From Candidatus Zhuqueibacterota bacterium (GTDB lineage: Bacteria > Zhuqueibacterota > Zhuqueibacteria > Oceanimicrobiales > Oceanimicrobiaceae), in NCBI GenBank assembly GCA_029262005.1, contig JAJDAG010000127.1:1-51637 (forward strand): 51,637 bases of DNA, read 5' to 3'. Within the stretch, counting starts at the first letter, position 1. Each line of letters starts with the position of its first letter. The translations under genes and the position numbers were made by a program. Shown here piece after piece: positions 41,836 to 51,159 of this stretch. Below the pieces are notes generated by a model. The model ran no database searches. It saw only the letters and a program-made list of their open reading frames with translations, and was not told the DNA's origin.

Positions 41836-44316
41836 TTGTTCCTCATGGCTTCAAAAATAAATGGTAGAGTTCCACTGTTTTTGGGTGGTATTGCTAGTTT
41901 TCTGGCTGTGGCATTTTTGTTTTTTGGCTTCATTATTCCACAAACGCCTGGCCGGTTGACCCGCCCCAGCGCTGCCTTGTTCGAAGATTATGCGCTTTGG
42001 TCAGGCATTACCGCTGTTGGTATTCCGGTGCCACAAAATAGCGAAACAGTGGCCTTGCTGGTTGTTGCGTTTTCTCTGGTTTGCTTTTTGGCATATGGCG
42101 TTGCAGTTTATTTCTGCTGGAAACACCGTGAAGATGTGCGAATCAGGTCCATCGTTTTGGGCGCTTCGGTTGTCTTTTTTTTCATTTCGGTCTGGTTTCT
42201 GCCAAATTTCAATACAGACATTTTTAACTATATTTTGCGCGGGCGGGTAGTAGCTGTTTATGAAAGCAATCCGTACTATGATGCGGGTGATGCGTTTTCT
42301 GATGATCCAATTTATGAGTATGCGAGCCACCGCTATACAGCAGTTCCCGGAGGTAAGTTCCCGGCCTGGATGCATATCAATATTTTTCTTGCCAGCATTG
42401 CAGGTGACAGTCCGCTAGGAAATCTGCTTCTTTATCGCGCATTCTTTTTTATCGTCAACCTGCTGAACCTTGGGCTCATTTGGCGGATCTTGATGCGATT
42501 GAACCCAAGTTATGTTATGCCTGCGCTGCTGATGTATGCGTGGAATCCAATTGTTGTCCTGAATGGACAGAGCAAAACAGACACCGTCATGGTGTTCTAT
42601 TTGCTCCTCGCGGTTTGTCTTCTGGTATATGAACGGCACCGCCTTGCAACCGTGGCTCTGAGTTTATCTGTTTTTGTAAAATTACTGACAGGTCCTTTGC
42701 TGCTGGTCTATTTGCTTCGGGAGCTAGCTCTTAAACGATGGCGGTCGTTGTTGGTGAGTATTGGCTTGATCGTTGGCACCGTGATTGTCTTGTACATGCC
42801 TTTTTGGGATGGACCAAGTCTGCTGACACATCACATCCAGGCATTGGGAGAAAGCGGGACCTCAGTGCCGGGGGCAATAAAAACACTTATGGCGCTCATG
42901 TTTGTTGCGCTTGTGTTCTGGATAGGCTTGATTCAAAACGGCAGCACAGAAAGACTTCTGGATGGCTGGGCGTTCTTGATGTTGTACTTTGCTTTATTTA
43001 TGACCAAGCTCGGGCTGGCCTGGTATTTAATGACTTTGATAGCTTTGGTAAGTCTTAGTTTTAACCCAAGGCTGACAGTCATCATGATTGTACTTTCGTT
43101 TTCATCTTTCTTGTTCAACTCCTGGTACTCGACTTTTTCCAGCCAGTTTAAAGTCGAGGAATTGTTCGCTTTGCCCAAGTTGCTGGTCTATATTGCTTTA
43201 CCTGCTATTCCGTTGCTCTGGTTTTCAATTCGCGGTGGCTATCGGAAGAGCAGGATTCTAATGAATTCTAAAAGTAACCCTGAACGCCATGGACAAAGGG
43301 ATGACCATTTAGCCCCTGGCGTTGCAGTTAATTCGATTAATAGAAGTGGAGATTTCTATTCTATGCTTCGTGTGCTTACTTATCATCGTGTTGCAAATCC
43401 GGAAGATAGGCCGATGCTCGATCCCCGGATCATAAGTTCCACACCGGTTGTTTTCGCGCAACATATGAACTATTTAAAAAAATACTACAATGTTGTATCG
43501 ATGCAGGATGTGCTGGACGCGGTTGAGGGGAAAAAGAGACTTTCTCAAAGAGCTATTCTGATTACTTTTGATGATGCTTATTGTGATTTCAAAGAAAATG
43601 CCTGGCCGGTACTGAAACGGCTTAACCTGCCTGTAACTGTTTTTGTGCCCACTGCCTACCCGGATCAAAATGAGCGTTGTTTTTGGTGGGATAAACTATA
43701 TCGTTGTGTTATTCATACGGAAAAAAGTAAAATTCTTTGTTCACCCATTGGTACGCTAACGCTGCAATCTGTAGAAGAGCGGCAGCAAAGTCTGCGGCGT
43801 TTACAGCAATACATCAAGACTTTACCACATTCAGAGGCCATGGCGCTTGTGGAACAAATCGCCGAAGAGCTGGAGGTAGGTTCAGACACAACAGAAAAAA
43901 CAGTGCTGAGCTGGGATGAATTAAGGCAGTTAGCAAAAGAAGGTGTTACGCTGGGAGCACACACAAGAACGCATCCAATCATGACACAATTGAGTCTTGA
44001 GCAGGTGCGCGAAGAGGTTTCTGGTTCTTTCACCGATTTGCAGCGCCAGCTCGGTGAAGTGTTGCCGATCTTCTGTTATCCAAACGGTAGCCACGACGAT
44101 GACATTGTGCAAGTTCTCGAAGAGGATAACTTTAAGCTTGCATTTACTGTGATCGATGGGATTAACGATTTGGAGGTTGCCAATCCACTGCGTTTGCGTC
44201 GCACAAATATTACAAGAAAATCCACGCTTCCCGTGCTTAAGCTCCGACTACAAAAATGGTATACTTACATAGATATGTGGCGCCATCGTGAACGTCACCA
44301 GGTTAGCCATAGATAG
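41836..44316 (+). CDS. Membrane glycosyltransferase fused to polysaccharide deacetylase
   Basis: An 826-residue two-part protein. Residues about 1-475 are a polytopic membrane region with about ten helices. An early loop contains FNTDIFNYILRGRVVAVYESNPYY (Asp-rich, GT-C-like), and SKTDTVMVFYLLLAVC follows. This is the pattern of polyprenol-phosphate-sugar-dependent GT87-type mannosyltransferases. After a polar linker (about 476-509), MLRVLTYHRV starts a NodB polysaccharide deacetylase at 510, with metal ligands Asp579/Asp580 (ITFDDAYCD) and His709/His713 (HTRTHP). The frame is unbroken. TTG 41836 or ATG 41845 could be the start. The two activities could act on one exported polymer. Confidence 0.85.
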   Translation: MFLMASKINGRVPLFLGGIASFLAVAFLFFGFIIPQTPGRLTRPSAALFEDYALWSGITAVGIPVPQNSETVALLVVAFSLVCFLAYGVAVYFCWKHREDVRIRSIVLGASVVFFFISVWFLPNFNTDIFNYILRGRVVAVYESNPYYDAGDAFSDDPIYEYASHRYTAVPGGKFPAWMHINIFLASIAGDSPLGNLLLYRAFFFIVNLLNLGLIWRILMRLNPSYVMPALLMYAWNPIVVLNGQSKTDTVMVFYLLLAVCLLVYERHRLATVALSLSVFVKLLTGPLLLVYLLRELALKRWRSLLVSIGLIVGTVIVLYMPFWDGPSLLTHHIQALGESGTSVPGAIKTLMALMFVALVFWIGLIQNGSTERLLDGWAFLMLYFALFMTKLGLAWYLMTLIALVSLSFNPRLTVIMIVLSFSSFLFNSWYSTFSSQFKVEELFALPKLLVYIALPAIPLLWFSIRGGYRKSRILMNSKSNPERHGQRDDHLAPGVAVNSINRSGDFYSMLRVLTYHRVANPEDRPMLDPRIISSTPVVFAQHMNYLKKYYNVVSMQDVLDAVEGKKRLSQRAILITFDDAYCDFKENAWPVLKRLNLPVTVFVPTAYPDQNERCFWWDKLYRCVIHTEKSKILCSPIGTLTLQSVEERQQSLRRLQQYIKTLPHSEAMALVEQIAEELEVGSDTTEKTVLSWDELRQLAKEGVTLGAHTRTHPIMTQLSLEQVREEVSGSFTDLQRQLGEVLPIFCYPNGSHDDDIVQVLEEDNFKLAFTVIDGINDLEVANPLRLRRTNITRKSTLPVLKLRLQKWYTYIDMWRHRERHQVSHR

Positions 44317-44516: not shown

Positions 44517-46478
44517 ATGAATTTTATGATTTTTGCATTGCCTGTGTTTGGGAATCGCACTTTTACTTTTTGTATAATTATTTCTATTGGTTTGCAAGTC
44601 CTTTCGCTTCGGGCGGCCCGGCAACAGGCGGAAAATACGCCGGGGAGCCAGGGGCCAAAGCACCCCTCTGAATTTGAGGCCTTTTTGGATAATATTATTT
44701 CTGAGCAGATGCAAGAGCTGCACGTACCAGGTGTCGTTCTTGCCTTGGTCAAAGGTGATAAAGTGTTTTTCCTGAAGGGATATGGCTTGGCCAATATTGC
44801 CGAGAATAAGCCTGTCGACCCGCAGAAAACTTTGTTTCGTGTCGCGTCGGTATCAAAAGTGTTGACTGTAACTGCGATCATGCAGTTGGTCGAGCGCAGG
44901 CTCATTGATTTAAATACAGACATCAATCAATATATTGATAAATTTGAGATCTCGGGCCGGTTTTCTCAACCGATAACGGTGGAACATTTGATTACACACA
45001 CCGCCGGTTTTGATGACAGTCGCATCGGCCTTGCTTCATTGTCTGAAACGTCGCTCATGTCTCTCGATGATTTTTTGGCGCACCACTTGCCGGCCCGGGT
45101 GATGCCACCCGGAAGAGAATACAGCTACTCGCGTTACGGAATTGCGCTTGCCGGGCACATTGTTGAAACAGTCTCCGGTAGTAGTTTTTCACGCTATATT
45201 GAGGAGCAAATTCTTCAACCTTTGGCTATGCGCAGGAGCGGTTTTACTCGACGGAATGATATGTTGACTGACTTTGCCACCGGCTATCGGTTTGATGGTG
45301 GTAGATTGGATGCAGTCCCGTATTATCATTTTTTCACAGCCCCGGAAGCATCCTTTAACGCAACTGCTGCAGACATGGCCAGGTTTATGCTCGCGCACCT
45401 GAACGGCGGGGAACACGATGGCGCACGCATTTTACACTCCGCGACTGTAAAATTGATGCATCAGCAACATTTTTCTCACCACACCGGTTTGCCGGGGTTG
45501 GCTTACGGCTTCTACGAGCGGCTGGAAAATGGTCAGCGTGCGATTCAACACGGTGGGCATATTCCCGGCTTTGTCAGCCGGATGTTGCTTTTGCCGGAGC
45601 AGAAGTTGGGATTGTTTATTTCCTGCAACAGTGACGCTTTTAAACTTATCAGTGTGGTCACCAGTGAGTTTTTTAACCGATATTTTCCGGCTCAGAATAC
45701 GGCTGCTCAGACTGAGAAAGCTGACGCCCAACCCGAACTGCCACCTGACGGTGCCGGGGCATCAACAAATTTAAGCCGGTTTGCTGGAACCTACCGCATC
45801 AATGAATATGCCCGAAAAACCATTGAGAAGATATTTTCGCTTAAAAAGCAATTCAGAATAAAGGTGGATGGTGATGGCTTGAGCGTAAAAGGAAGCAAGC
45901 ACCTTGTTGCTGTTGATACGCTGGTTTTTCGTGAGGTGGAAACCGGAGAGTTAACAGCTTTCCGCACCGATACAGCCGGTGTCGTTACCCGGTGGTTTAG
46001 CAAGCGTTTTGCTTATGAGAAAATGCGCTGTTATGAGACGGTTCAATTTCATCTGACGGCTGTTTTGTTGATGAGTATTGTCTTCCTGGTTGGCTTTTTA
46101 TTTTGGGCAGGCGGTCATATCCCAAAGTTGAATTTTTTGCCGTTTATTCAATCTGTCGAGACCAATGGCGTTTTTCGTCTGGCTGGTGTGGTCAGTTTAC
46201 TCAATCTGGTATTTTTGGCAGGGCTGACTCTGCTGTTCCTGACTTTCGACCGGATCGATGAATTCACCTTCGGCATTCCACCCTTGATTGTCGGTTGGCT
46301 GTGTTTGCCCATGGCCGGTGCCACGCTGACCGTTGGCTTGCTGGTTGCAGAAATCAAGGTCTGTATCAGCAAAACCTATTCGTTCTCTTCGCGTGTTTAC
46401 TTTACGCTTGTTACACTGACTTCAGTTGGTTTCCTCTTATTTCTAAATCACTGGAATTTGCTCGGATTTCATTTCTAA
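44517..46478 (+). CDS. Serine hydrolase (beta-lactamase/PBP fold) with C-terminal membrane domain
   Basis: A 653-residue protein of the class C beta-lactamase/penicillin-binding fold. A signal-like segment covers residues 1-32. The nucleophile motif is S111-V-S-K114 (RVASVSKVLT); the second motif usually reads Y-S-N but here is Y204-S-R206 (EYSYSRYG); HGG at 345-347 (IQHGGHIPGF) is the third. After residue about 420 a beta domain (STNLSRFAGTYRINEYARK) is followed by four or five membrane helices (about 520-645). Such enzymes are esterases or peptidases of cell-wall substrates; the Arg in the second motif is unusual. Two genes downstream run convergently. Confidence 0.85.
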   Translation: MNFMIFALPVFGNRTFTFCIIISIGLQVLSLRAARQQAENTPGSQGPKHPSEFEAFLDNIISEQMQELHVPGVVLALVKGDKVFFLKGYGLANIAENKPVDPQKTLFRVASVSKVLTVTAIMQLVERRLIDLNTDINQYIDKFEISGRFSQPITVEHLITHTAGFDDSRIGLASLSETSLMSLDDFLAHHLPARVMPPGREYSYSRYGIALAGHIVETVSGSSFSRYIEEQILQPLAMRRSGFTRRNDMLTDFATGYRFDGGRLDAVPYYHFFTAPEASFNATAADMARFMLAHLNGGEHDGARILHSATVKLMHQQHFSHHTGLPGLAYGFYERLENGQRAIQHGGHIPGFVSRMLLLPEQKLGLFISCNSDAFKLISVVTSEFFNRYFPAQNTAAQTEKADAQPELPPDGAGASTNLSRFAGTYRINEYARKTIEKIFSLKKQFRIKVDGDGLSVKGSKHLVAVDTLVFREVETGELTAFRTDTAGVVTRWFSKRFAYEKMRCYETVQFHLTAVLLMSIVFLVGFLFWAGGHIPKLNFLPFIQSVETNGVFRLAGVVSLLNLVFLAGLTLLFLTFDRIDEFTFGIPPLIVGWLCLPMAGATLTVGLLVAEIKVCISKTYSFSSRVYFTLVTLTSVGFLLFLNHWNLLGFHF

Positions 46479-46622: not shown

Positions 46623-48065
46623 TTATTGATTTGTGTCGAAAATAACCTCTCCCAAGTCGCGGTCGCTTGCGTGGTCGGCGCGTAGACGGGGCGCCTCTTC
46701 AAGTTCCAGGCGGATGCGCGGAAAGTGATATTGAATGTCCGCATCCTCTGAGACATCTGTTTCGCCATCCAGATCGAGTACCAGTTCTTTCAGCATGCCG
46801 GTGATGGTTTCCATGGGGAGTGTTTCTTCTTTGCCGCAACGGTTTACTTTTTTGCAAATACTATCCGCGGTTTGGGGTTGACTGTAACTGGCAAATATGG
46901 CCTTGTAGAGTCGTTTACGGATATTATTTTTTTGTCTGTGTTGACGGAGCCGAAGGATTCTCACCCAGCGAGTTAAGGGAATTATTATGAATAAAAGCGA
47001 AAAGACCAGTGGCACGCCGCCAAAAAGAAGCGGATGACTCGCCACTGCTTGCAGGAGTTCTCCACCCGGGCCGTTGATATTCAGTTGCACCAATTCCGTA
47101 AAGGCGCCCTGTGTCACCAGGTAGGATATGAGCAGGTTGAAAGCATTCATTGCAACAATCAAAAAGTTGCGGCCTGCGGAATTTCCTGTGACCTGATATT
47201 CAGGCTCGTACTCATCCCAATAATTGACTATTTTACCTTCTGCTGGCGCCACCCCTCTGAGTATTCGTTTAAACTTACCGTATACCGCGCCATTGTCAGA
47301 GACCAGAACCTCTCCATCATAGCGATTGAGGTAGTCGGTAAAGCTCTGCTCGGCCTGTTTTCTATCCAATCCTGCCAGTGCTTCCAGGTCGGCGGTAACC
47401 AGAATGCCGTTGTTTTGGCCGAGGAAAGCGGCCACTTCTTTGGCATTGGCAAGTTGCGAAATATCGACGCGTGGCGGGCCGAAGACAAAATCATAAACCG
47501 CGGCGATAAAGTTTTTCTTTTTCTTATTCAGGGTGCCTGGCTGTGGCTCGTATTCCCGGTATGGGTAGCCGCGATCATCGTGTCGATTGCGAGTCCCTCC
47601 TGTGATGGTCCGCCAGCGGAAAATAGACATCAAAATATGGAGGAGTTGCAGGCCGTTAAATGACAGGCCGCCACGTGTTCCACGATTCTGCCCACGTTTT
47701 CCGGAACTGGCGGCAACAACCAGCAGGATCATCAAGATCAGGAAAATAACGAAGTAGATTACCAGAGTCACGGTCAGCCAGGCCTTGAACAATAGAGTAA
47801 ACGCCTTCCATAGATATTCCGCCGCTTTTTGCAAAGTTTCGGTAAACGGTTTTTCGTCCCATTGCCGTGGGCTGGACCCGAAATCATAAATCAAGTCGCC
47901 GTTTTCAGTTACCTGAATACGGCAAACGTATTTTTTTATGAGCTGCTCTATTCCGTCTTTGACCTGATCAATTGCGAGACCGGTGACACTGGAAGCCTCA
48001 TAGTCCGTAAACCGGTGCTGGCGCTTGAGAAGGGTTTTCTCCAACAACTCTAAGGTTTTTTGCAT
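46623..48065 (-). CDS. Membrane protein with three winged-helix-like domains
   Basis: A 480-residue protein on the minus strand that I do not recognise as a known family. Three segments share the same layout of helices ending in a wing-like strand pair: residues about 1-62 (HRFTDYEASSVTGL...QVTENGDLIYDF), 205-266 (ILVTADLEALAGL...LVSDNGAVYGKF) and 382-450 (PQTADSICKKVN...DVSEDADIQYHF). Hydrophobic helices lie at about 90-118, 300-318 and 348-366, so domains 1 and 3 (or all three) may face the cytosol. A basic segment KKKKNFIAAVYDFVFGPPR precedes domain 2. ATG 48065 is chosen over TTG 48098. Confidence 0.65.
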   Translation of the reverse strand: MQKTLELLEKTLLKRQHRFTDYEASSVTGLAIDQVKDGIEQLIKKYVCRIQVTENGDLIYDFGSSPRQWDEKPFTETLQKAAEYLWKAFTLLFKAWLTVTLVIYFVIFLILMILLVVAASSGKRGQNRGTRGGLSFNGLQLLHILMSIFRWRTITGGTRNRHDDRGYPYREYEPQPGTLNKKKKNFIAAVYDFVFGPPRVDISQLANAKEVAAFLGQNNGILVTADLEALAGLDRKQAEQSFTDYLNRYDGEVLVSDNGAVYGKFKRILRGVAPAEGKIVNYWDEYEPEYQVTGNSAGRNFLIVAMNAFNLLISYLVTQGAFTELVQLNINGPGGELLQAVASHPLLFGGVPLVFSLLFIIIPLTRWVRILRLRQHRQKNNIRKRLYKAIFASYSQPQTADSICKKVNRCGKEETLPMETITGMLKELVLDLDGETDVSEDADIQYHFPRIRLELEEAPRLRADHASDRDLGEVIFDTNQ

Positions 48066-48104
48066 GGAGTACCTGCTATTAATTGTCAATTTATGCAAGA
48101 ATGA

Positions 48105-49346
48105 CTAAATTCCATATTTCTCCGCAAACGTAACCAGTGCCTCCTCAAATATTTGCATGGGCGGACGCACCAGGCCGGCGCCAACCTGGCCAATGCCGGC
48201 ATTTTTGTGTGCAATGCCGGTATTCACGCGAGGCGTCAAGCCGGTTTCAATGACTTTGCGCAAATCGATGCCGGTGGGCGTGCCGCGAAATTCAAATTGG
48301 GGAATTGTGAAATGTTTATGCTCGGCAAAAGTGATTTCGTACATTTCCATGGTCGCATTAACCGCATCTTTGGGTGAGCCGCTGACAAAAGTGACAATGG
48401 CCGGAGCAGCAGCCATGGCAAATCCACCGATGCCGGCGGTTTCCGTGATGGTGCTGTCGCCAATGTCCGGGTTGGCATCCTCGTCACCAAATCCTGGAAA
48501 ATAAAGACCTTTTGGTATTTGCGCGGGCGCCGTAAACCATTGTTCGCCAAGGCCACTGACACGGATACCGAAATCCGTGCCGTTGCGCGCCATGGTGGTG
48601 ACGATGGTGCTGCCTGCAATGCCGTGGGCAGTGTCGGCCATTACTTTGCAGGCCGCCATTACCGGGTTCAAAACACTCAGCGCGTTGTCACCAATGGCTT
48701 TTAGAACGGTTGCACTGGTTTCGTTGTCATCACTGACTTTTGCAATATGCGGGGCAAGGGCTTTCAGGAACAAAATAGAGCCTGCTTTGTTGCGATTGTG
48801 TCCCTCATCTCCCATGTGCAGTGCTTCGGAAAGCAGCGCCTTGATATCAATGCCGCCACTGGCTTTGACGGCGTCATTCAAAACAGGGGCCATGACGTCT
48901 TCCATCCATCGCAGTCGCTGTTGCACTTCATCGTCGTAAGCGCCGTATCGCAGTACTTTTCCGTATCCTTCATTTAGATTAGAGAATGCGCGATTGCCGT
49001 GGACTTCATTTTCGACAATGTAAACGGACATGGACGCTGAAGTAACCCCGGCCATGGGCCCCACTGCTTGATGGTGGTGACATGGCTCAAGTTCGATTTC
49101 ACCGCTTTCAACCAAAGTTTGTGCTTCGGCTTCGGTTCGCGCTTTACCCTCAAAGATAAGCGCGCCGGTGATGGCACCGCGCATGGGGCCGGAAGTGCGC
49201 TCCCATGTGATTGGCGGCCCGGCGTGCAGCAGAAGATTATCCTTCATTCCGGGTATGACGTCTTTGGCTTTGGCAATTTCGGTTAGCACAGCCCGAGCTT
49301 CTATCATTCTGGTAGTGGCTTGTTGATTGGCTTTTTCAATATCCAT
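48105..49346 (-). CDS. DUF1116 protein (AllG/YlbE-like)
   Basis: A 413-residue DUF1116 protein. Key blocks are GPMRGAITGALIFEG, the His-rich EPCHHHQAVGPMAGVTSASM, and FSNLNEGYGKVLRYGAYDD. GMDEGHNRNKAGSILFLKAL-like HMGDEGHNRNKAGS and the closing RPPMQIFEEALVTFAEKYG complete the family. In E. coli the DUF1116 protein AllG acts with FdrA (AllF) and a DUF2877 protein (AllH) as oxamate carbamoyltransferase in allantoin degradation. Here it follows fdrA by 88 bases on the same strand. The partner DUF2877 is not in the window. Confidence 0.88.
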   Translation of the reverse strand: MDIEKANQQATTRMIEARAVLTEIAKAKDVIPGMKDNLLLHAGPPITWERTSGPMRGAITGALIFEGKARTEAEAQTLVESGEIELEPCHHHQAVGPMAGVTSASMSVYIVENEVHGNRAFSNLNEGYGKVLRYGAYDDEVQQRLRWMEDVMAPVLNDAVKASGGIDIKALLSEALHMGDEGHNRNKAGSILFLKALAPHIAKVSDDNETSATVLKAIGDNALSVLNPVMAACKVMADTAHGIAGSTIVTTMARNGTDFGIRVSGLGEQWFTAPAQIPKGLYFPGFGDEDANPDIGDSTITETAGIGGFAMAAAPAIVTFVSGSPKDAVNATMEMYEITFAEHKHFTIPQFEFRGTPTGIDLRKVIETGLTPRVNTGIAHKNAGIGQVGAGLVRPPMQIFEEALVTFAEKYGI

Positions 49347-49434
49347 CTGTGGTTCCTTTTTGTTCGTGCGCTATGCGTGTCATGGGTCGTTAGGCTGCTA
49401 TGCTCTTGGGCATTTCGCAGCTTTAATCTCAAAA

Positions 49435-51159
49435 TTAATTGTTTTGCGCTTTCTTCATGCGCTCAAGAATTGACATCAGTTTTTCATTGCCGCCGGCAGG
49501 TGGCCGCCAGTCAACATGAACAACAGCCGCAGTTTGATTAGCTAAACTTGAAGCAAATGACTCTAAACCAACATTGATTGCCGCAACCGGTTCTTGCAGG
49601 ATGGCCAGATCGACTGGAGGAAGCTTCCCGGGTTGTAATTGCCTTTGCAGGCGCTGGCCAACATACGCACAAGCGACAGTATTGCTTTTTTCAACGCGTG
49701 CGCCCGCAGTTCGCAGGCGCTCCATCTGGGAAGCTATGTTCTGGGGGTCATCTTCTGTGCCAACCAGCACAACGACAATTTCCAGTTCACGTTTGGCCTT
49801 TTGGGCGCGGGTTCGTGCAGCAGAAATAGCGGGGGCCAGTTCACTTGCAGGATCAGGATGGGCGCCGTGACCCAGTACAATATCCATTAAAATGATGGCG
49901 ACCTCAGGATCGGCTGCTTCTTGCTGGAAACGCGCCAACCGCAAATTGTTGTCGAGCATCGGATGCGGACGTCCTACTGTAAAAGCGTCTTCACCCAGAT
50001 CGAGAAGCGTGTGTTCGCGACTGCGTTTTAAATCGTTCAACTGTTGTTCTTTTTCGTGCGCGATGTTTGAGTGGATGTTCGGCAGGTAATTCTGTAAAAT
50101 GAACAGGCTCTCCTGGGCCAGGGTGCCACCGGAAAACAGGCCGCGCAAATAGCGCTGGTCTTTTGCAAATCTAACCGGTTTATTTTTTGCAGGTGAAGGC
50201 GTGGCCGCTGCTGTTACCAGTTGAACGGCCAGTTCTGCGGTTTCATCAAGGGAACGGGCAAAATGTATGTTGTGACTATTTTCGTCAGTTGTCACTGCGG
50301 GGTATCCAATGAAATAGACCACCACGGGTTTGTCAACCGTTCTGGCTGATTGCAGCAGGGTGGTGGTTACCGTTTGGGCCGGCGGTTTTGAAATGAGCAC
50401 GATGACCTGGGTCTCAGGATCACGTTGTAGCAACCCGAGACATTGCAGTGCAGTAATGCCACCCACTTCTGCGGACAGATCGCGACCGCCCGTTCCCAGC
50501 GCGTGCGTGATGCCGCTGCCCAATTGATCGATGCGCGCGGTGACTTGCTGCAACCCGGTTCCTGAAGCACCAACCAGGCCGATGGGTCCACGCCGCACCT
50601 GATTGGCAAAGCCAAACCCTGTATTGTTTACTATGGAAGTGCCGCAATCCGGCCCCATCAACAACAGACCGCTATGGCCGGCCTCGTGTTTTAATGCGAT
50701 TTCATCTTCAATACTAACATTGTCGCTGTAAAGAAAAACATTTTTTTGTAAACGCAGTGCTTCGCGAGCCACACCGGCTGCATATTGGCCCGGCACAGAG
50801 ATAAGCGCCCATTTTGCATTTGGCAGCATTTGGGCTGCCGCCTCAACACTTTTAGGTAAGTAATCCTGCTCAGAAGTTGATTTGCGGGACGAGAGCAGGT
50901 TGTCTACTTCCGCCAGGGCAGCATCGGCAGTGGTCGTATCATCACACTCGACGCTGATAATGAGATCATCTGGAAAAGCAGCTTCGGCTTCTGCGGTGAG
51001 AAGTCCATTCTGCTTAAGTATTTCTTTGTTGGCGGCCACACCCATCATGACGCCGGCATTATTGACACCGGGTATTTGGCTCAGGGAAAGCTGGAGCTGC
51101 ATCAGGATAATTGAATCGTAATAGGTGCCGCGTCGGATTTCGACTTTGGTTGTCCGCAT
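49435..51159 (-). CDS. fdrA: FdrA (AllF-like acyl-CoA-synthetase-fold protein)
   Basis: A 574-residue protein of the succinyl-CoA-ligase-like FdrA family. The Rossmann segment IGLVGASGTGLQQVTARIDQLGSGITHALGTGG is near residue 192; the second half has LRGLFSGGTLAQESLFIL and the family hallmark LLDLGEDAFTVGRPHPMLD, then VLGHGAHPDPASEL. It ends ...VDWRPPAGGNEKLMSILERMK, also typical. E. coli FdrA (AllF) takes part in oxamate carbamoyltransferase. It is the first gene of the minus-strand run fdrA-DUF1116-winged-helix gene. G+C content is visibly higher than in the ribosomal region (see findings). Confidence 0.9.
   Translation of the reverse strand: MRTTKVEIRRGTYYDSIILMQLQLSLSQIPGVNNAGVMMGVAANKEILKQNGLLTAEAEAAFPDDLIISVECDDTTTADAALAEVDNLLSSRKSTSEQDYLPKSVEAAAQMLPNAKWALISVPGQYAAGVAREALRLQKNVFLYSDNVSIEDEIALKHEAGHSGLLLMGPDCGTSIVNNTGFGFANQVRRGPIGLVGASGTGLQQVTARIDQLGSGITHALGTGGRDLSAEVGGITALQCLGLLQRDPETQVIVLISKPPAQTVTTTLLQSARTVDKPVVVYFIGYPAVTTDENSHNIHFARSLDETAELAVQLVTAAATPSPAKNKPVRFAKDQRYLRGLFSGGTLAQESLFILQNYLPNIHSNIAHEKEQQLNDLKRSREHTLLDLGEDAFTVGRPHPMLDNNLRLARFQQEAADPEVAIILMDIVLGHGAHPDPASELAPAISAARTRAQKAKRELEIVVVLVGTEDDPQNIASQMERLRTAGARVEKSNTVACAYVGQRLQRQLQPGKLPPVDLAILQEPVAAINVGLESFASSLANQTAAVVHVDWRPPAGGNEKLMSILERMKKAQNN

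Follow-up and report, generated by a model that had tools for sequence, protein, structure and literature searches.

A bacterial membrane protein family with three predicted winged-helix repeats interleaved with membrane helices

We describe a bacterial membrane protein, P0001, in which three winged-helix domains (R1, R2 and R3) are interleaved with three hydrophobic helices, as predicted by AlphaFold2 and hydropathy. It is encoded in a 51,637-nucleotide stretch of DNA from Candidatus Zhuqueibacterota bacterium, the whole of which we call the window. As far as the searched libraries show, the family is undescribed, and it builds an unusual architecture from a known fold. We give an even chance to the proposal that P0001 is a scaffold or sensor embedded in the membrane, with winged helices that bind protein and not DNA.

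The gene runs from 48065 to 46623 on the minus strand of the window, begins with ATG and encodes 480 amino acids plus a stop codon. A TTG is also present upstream, at 48098, but homologues align with the ATG of P0001. The AlphaFold2 model, built on an alignment of 41 homologous sequences, has a pLDDT of 86.5 and a pTM of 0.79, and supersedes an earlier model from 6 sequences (pLDDT 52.6). Each winged helix is predicted as a helix-helix-helix-hairpin unit of about 60–70 residues with pLDDT mostly 84–97. The parts of the protein are as follows.

47877..48065, - strand: R1, first winged helix, residues 1-63; wing QVTENGDLIYDF at 51-62 (AlphaFold2; hhalign to R2 and R3)
47709..47783, - strand: TM1, residues 95-119, the middle of a long helix (74-121); hydropathy 3.35 (19-residue mean)
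47466..47654, - strand: membrane-flanking module, residues 138-200; an amphipathic helix ending IFRWRT, a β-hairpin with D163, G166 and Y167, and the YDFVFGP helix (AlphaFold2; Jensen-Shannon divergence (JSD) conservation peak of 0.72 at 184-199)
47268..47465, - strand: R2, second winged helix, residues 201-266; wing LVSDNGAVYGKF at 254-265 (AlphaFold2; hhalign)
47178..47228, - strand: YWDEYEP..GN motif, directly before TM2, residues 280-296 (JSD 0.68; N295 in 36/36 members)
47112..47177, - strand: TM2, residues 297-318, with conserved N307 and N310 (AlphaFold2, hydropathy, conservation); a variable loop separates it from TM3
46965..47033, - strand: TM3, residues 345-367, with P352, P363 and R366 in 36/36 members (AlphaFold2, hydropathy); a basic stalk connects it to R3
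46719..46913, - strand: R3, third winged helix, residues 385-449; wing DVSEDADIQYHF at 437-448 (AlphaFold2; hhalign)
46626..46718, - strand: C-terminal helix and tail, residues 450-480, with a conserved LGxVIxDS end (AlphaFold2)

The original prediction, made by reading the sequence, was of three repeats that end in wing strings. These strings are present and coincide with predicted hairpin wings, whose strands lie at residues 49-53 and 58-61 in R1, 252-255 and 261-264 in R2, and 435-438 and 444-447 in R3. The strands had been called near-parallel, whereas the model gives antiparallel hairpins. The matching spacing of the preceding helices holds for R1 and R2, where the last two helices and the wing keep a constant offset of 203 residues (21-28/32-45 against 224-231/235-248), but not for R3, which has about 7 additional residues ahead of its last helix (helices 400-408/418-431). 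The winged-helix fold, previously inferred, is predicted with high confidence for R1, R2 and R3, and the Foldseek neighbours of the single domains are winged-helix proteins. Membrane helices do separate the repeats, with TM1 between R1 and R2, and TM2 and TM3 between R2 and R3.

Self-alignment of the repeats with hhalign gave profile-profile probabilities of 97.4% for R1-R2, 95.0% for R1-R3 and 92.2% for R2-R3. Column-shuffled controls reached a maximum of 8.3%, with 0/300 at the level of the repeat pairs, and non-repeat parts of P0001 gave probabilities of 0.15–19%. Because the repeat values are high against both kinds of control, the profile comparison shows that R1, R2 and R3 are homologous, beyond being mere look-alikes. 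The A6 profile also matches R2 (47268-47441), R2 itself being a member of that profile.

Across the family the mean number of Lys and Arg residues is 0.6 in the TM2/TM3 loop versus 7.2 in the 19 residues after TM3. By the positive-inside rule this pattern would place both R2 and R3 on the cytoplasmic side. The protein probably lies in the inner membrane. The orientation of TM1, and hence the side on which R1 lies, is ambiguous because positive charge flanks TM1 both ways (family means of +4.0 before TM1 and +4.3 in residues 148-200). Three spans would set R1 opposite to R2 and R3, which would be odd for three homologous domains. A fourth span at residues 130-155, which would put all three winged helices on one side, was considered and is not claimed; hydropathy there is intermediate (mean 1.16) and the model has a short helix.

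Searches with P0001 and its family agree with a known fold in an undescribed protein. No Pfam, NCBIfam, PHROG, PADLOC or PDB sequence family reached the cut-off or was convincing for the P0001 family, and the A1 profile had no match among PDB chains up to E 10. Weak Pfam matches within the family, to EutK_C, SelB-wing_1, WH_MCM3_C, TFIIE_beta and HTH_IclR, are in agreement with the predicted fold. The EutK C-terminal domain (PF16365), SelB-wing_1, TFIIE_beta and WH_MCM3_C matched 1–5 of 41 members with best E values of 0.001–0.08; these are winged-helix families, but their overall architecture is unrelated to that of P0001 and the matches are unusable for assignment. When single domains were compared to the PDB with Foldseek, neighbours included FurB (probability 1.00), Zur (0.99), LOTUS (0.97) and MarR types, the E values of 0.4–0.8 for the first three limiting this to similarity at the level of the fold. 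Whole P0001 had no significant match in the PDB; its rank 1 match, the UFL1-DDRGK1 winged-helix chimera 8b9x, was insignificant (E 0.16, probability 0.30, TM-score 0.14/0.23). Nothing in the viral structure library matched P0001 significantly.

About 35 distinct co-linear full-length homologues, with 27–51% identity to P0001, were found in KSB1/Calditrichota, Thermodesulfobacteriota, Nitrospirota, Acidobacteriota, Bacteroidota and one record titled Deltaproteobacteria. A single-protein scan of species genomes found nothing; an alignment-based scan found 23 loci, whose record titles name Calditrichia, KSB1, Desulfobacterales, Deltaproteobacteria, Chloracidobacterium/Blastocatellia, Saprospira grandis and other Bacteroidota, and Candidatus Magnetocorallium (Nitrospirota). 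At least six bacterial groups contain scattered species in which the architecture, with the three winged helices of the original prediction, is retained. All 36 full-length members (36/36) keep it entire together with both signature motifs, and because they do so over 27–51% identity the parts of P0001 appear to work together. A small number of copies (L036, L047 and L056) are split or cut short.

The family is sparse within phyla. It occurs in 6 of 82 genomes of the phylum of P0001, where its nearest relatives have 48–50% identity, in 11 of 395 sampled genomes of the Saprospira phylum (one single-domain hit left out) and in 7 of 347 sampled genomes of the Chloracidobacterium phylum (two single-domain hits left out). 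One full copy per genome was present in 9/9 genomes checked, and no relative was found in the viral contigs and plasmids searched. In the tree the members from Acidobacteriota, from Thermodesulfobacteriota and most of those from Bacteroidota each cluster together. This grouping suggests an old gene that has frequently been lost, and by itself it is no proof of transfer.

Some smaller proteins from Acidobacteriota and Bacteroidota genomes look like single-domain relatives of the family. In L067 (1435-1905) and L068 (1489-1938) one or more N-terminal membrane spans precede one C-terminal winged-helix domain of the family type, and in L046 (1264-1656 and 1762-2082) and L057 (805-1692 and 1719-2201) genes of the single-domain type are paired and adjacent. 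These proteins share with P0001 the order of membrane span(s) then family-type domain and match the family profile at E 1e-4 to 5e-4. Unlike P0001 they are 107–296 amino acids long, carry one C-terminal domain, lack the YDFVFGP and YWDEYEP modules, and have no Pfam match over the cut-off.

Conservation differs modestly between segments, with JSD values of 0.72 for the YDFVFGP helix, 0.68 for YWDEYEP..GN, 0.56 for TM1 and TM3, and 0.44, 0.52 and 0.41 for the recognition helices of R1, R2 and R3, respectively. Residues N295, P352, P363, R366, G196, W86 and F62 are invariant in 36/36 members, and the conserved residues of the TM helices are N307, N310, G349, P352, S356, P363 and R366. The net charge of whole domains was dropped as a case against DNA binding, since the DNA-binding control, residues 1-83 of E. 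coli Fur, is also negative (net charge -3). As this measure does not discriminate, charge was counted on the wings and recognition helices instead. The wing tip has a net positive charge in 0/36 (R1), 5/36 (R2) and 0/36 (R3) members, and the first half of the recognition helix in 0/36, 0/36 and 8/36. Thus wing tips and the starts of recognition helices are acidic in almost all members.

The protein-binding scaffold or sensor is favoured because of these acidic wings and recognition helices, and because conservation is strongest in the membrane-flanking motifs and the Asn, Pro and Ser residues of the TM helices. From this we infer both the protein-binding role of the winged helices and sensing. 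The membrane core and its flanking motifs (IFxWxT, DxxGYxY, YDFVFGP, YWDEYEP..GN and the TM Asn, Pro and Ser residues) would carry out a conserved job, either sensing or the binding of a membrane partner. At the membrane surface the winged helices would serve for protein docking or self-association, like winged-helix repeat scaffolds. The presence of one copy per genome (9 genomes) and the lack of a conserved operon partner at 43 loci fit a stand-alone component.

A possible analogue is UFL1/UFBP1 (DDRGK1), the membrane-anchored scaffold of winged-helix repeats in the eukaryotic UFM1 E3 ligase (PMC9627666). Like P0001 it combines several winged-helix repeats with transmembrane anchoring, and its repeats hold proteins, not DNA (PMC9627666). 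It differs in being eukaryotic, with a single N-terminal span and contiguous, PCI-like repeats split over two proteins, and there is no sequence similarity between the two, as judged by the A1 profile against PDB chains up to E 10. UFL1/UFBP1 serves the scaffold reading as an analogy only. The more specific version of that reading, a bacterial winged-helix-repeat scaffold or sensor threaded through the membrane, with docking modules of which one is possibly on the outer face, and in functional parallel to UFL1/UFBP1, is a tentative one, to which we give rather less than an even chance.

Winged helices most often bind DNA, which speaks for the main rival, a membrane-bound one-component transcription regulator in which at least one tethered winged helix binds DNA, as in ToxR/CadC, and the membrane core senses a signal. 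We consider such a membrane-tethered DNA-binding regulator unlikely. ToxR and CadC have one N-terminal OmpR-type domain, one span and a periplasmic sensor domain. They resemble P0001 in holding a winged helix and a membrane span within one bacterial protein, and CadC is a precedent for tethered DNA binding, showing that membrane tethering is compatible with DNA binding by a winged helix (PMC5430869). Weak Pfam matches to regulator HTH families (HTH_IclR in 4/41 and AbiEi_4 in 5/41 members, best E 0.007–0.07) and a MarR_2 match, at E 2.9e-5 and below the cut-off, in the related single-domain TM protein of L068 also point this way. Against them stand the acidic wings and recognition-helix starts of nearly all members, recognition helices that are less conserved than the membrane-flanking motifs, and the lack of a conserved divergent gene or operon that could be a target. 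Moreover, P0001 does not have the ToxR/CadC layout of a single span and a separate sensor; its three domains are of another type and have three hydrophobic segments interspersed among them, with winged helices on either side of TM1 in the sequence, and Trans_reg_C is absent from its Pfam matches up to E 10 and from the family-wide matches listed. In the literature searched we found no description of a membrane-bound regulator with three winged helices.

The strong conservation of N307, N310, G349, P352, S356, P363 and R366, together with both membrane-flanking motifs, could be read as the mark of a transporter, a channel or an assembly factor whose working part is the membrane core, the winged helices providing oligomeric structure only. 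This seems less probable still, as there are three spans only, and neither fold nor sequence searches matched P0001 significantly to any transporter or channel.

That P0001 belongs to an oxamate carbamoyltransferase-like fdrA/allG unit, as originally suggested from gene order, is very improbable. The genes upstream are fdrA (allF; NF004760) and allG (PF06545, the DUF1116 gene of the original prediction), the 39-base gap (48066-48104) had been given correctly, the genes share a strand, and promoter- and terminator-like sites in the region are at chance level only. But fdrA or allG lies beside the gene at 0/42 other loci (searched flanks of at most about 8 kb, less at some loci). Within the 82 genomes of the phylum, 6 have AllG and 6 the P0001 family, the overlap being the window's genome only, and the fdrA-allG pair is found in G002, G003 and G007 without a P0001-type gene after it. 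In E. coli, allF and allG are partnered by allH and allK, the oxamate carbamoyltransferase being AllFGH (PMC11326118). For the three reasons of loci, co-occurrence and relatives, the neighbourhood that P0001 shares with fdrA-allG is a local one.

The fdrA (allF) and allG genes of the window (48105-51159, - strand) are adjacent, with no allH or allK visible in the sequence analysed, and the same two-gene arrangement is seen in G002, G003 and G007. As the E. coli enzyme also requires AllH (PMC11326118), the pair in the window may have a different role or a partner gene elsewhere.

Clustering of ORFs across 43 loci gave no general operon partner for the family. Recurrent clusters were the gene itself, apparent antisense shadow ORFs and lineage-local neighbours, namely queC/queD/queE- and miaB-like genes (two lineages), yidC (one) and hutH/rpsT-like genes (KSB1); gene calls here are home-made and names were assigned by eye. 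In two distant lineages (L018, L019, L023 and L022, L079, L080, L081) the queC-like genes adjoin the family gene or lie close by, possibly by coincidence, and queE/queD-like and miaB-like genes, also named by eye, are beside or near it in L018, L019 and L023. Elsewhere in the window, the ORF at 41836-44316 (+ strand) joins a multi-span, GT87-like N-terminal region (a weak match, E 0.0025) to a C-terminal polysaccharide deacetylase (PF01522, E 1e-21), and could be a genuine glycosyltransferase-deacetylase fusion. The ORF at 44517-46478 (+ strand) encodes a serine beta-lactamase-type hydrolase (PF00144, E 4.5e-62) with a hydrophobic C-terminal tail that looks multi-span.

P0001 thus represents a previously unnamed family, present in Saprospira grandis and several phyla, whose structure is predicted with confidence and whose conserved residues are sharply defined. 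If its winged helices bind DNA, the protein would be a membrane-bound regulator equipped with three domains of this kind. If they bind proteins, the idea of the winged-helix scaffold would extend to bacterial membranes.
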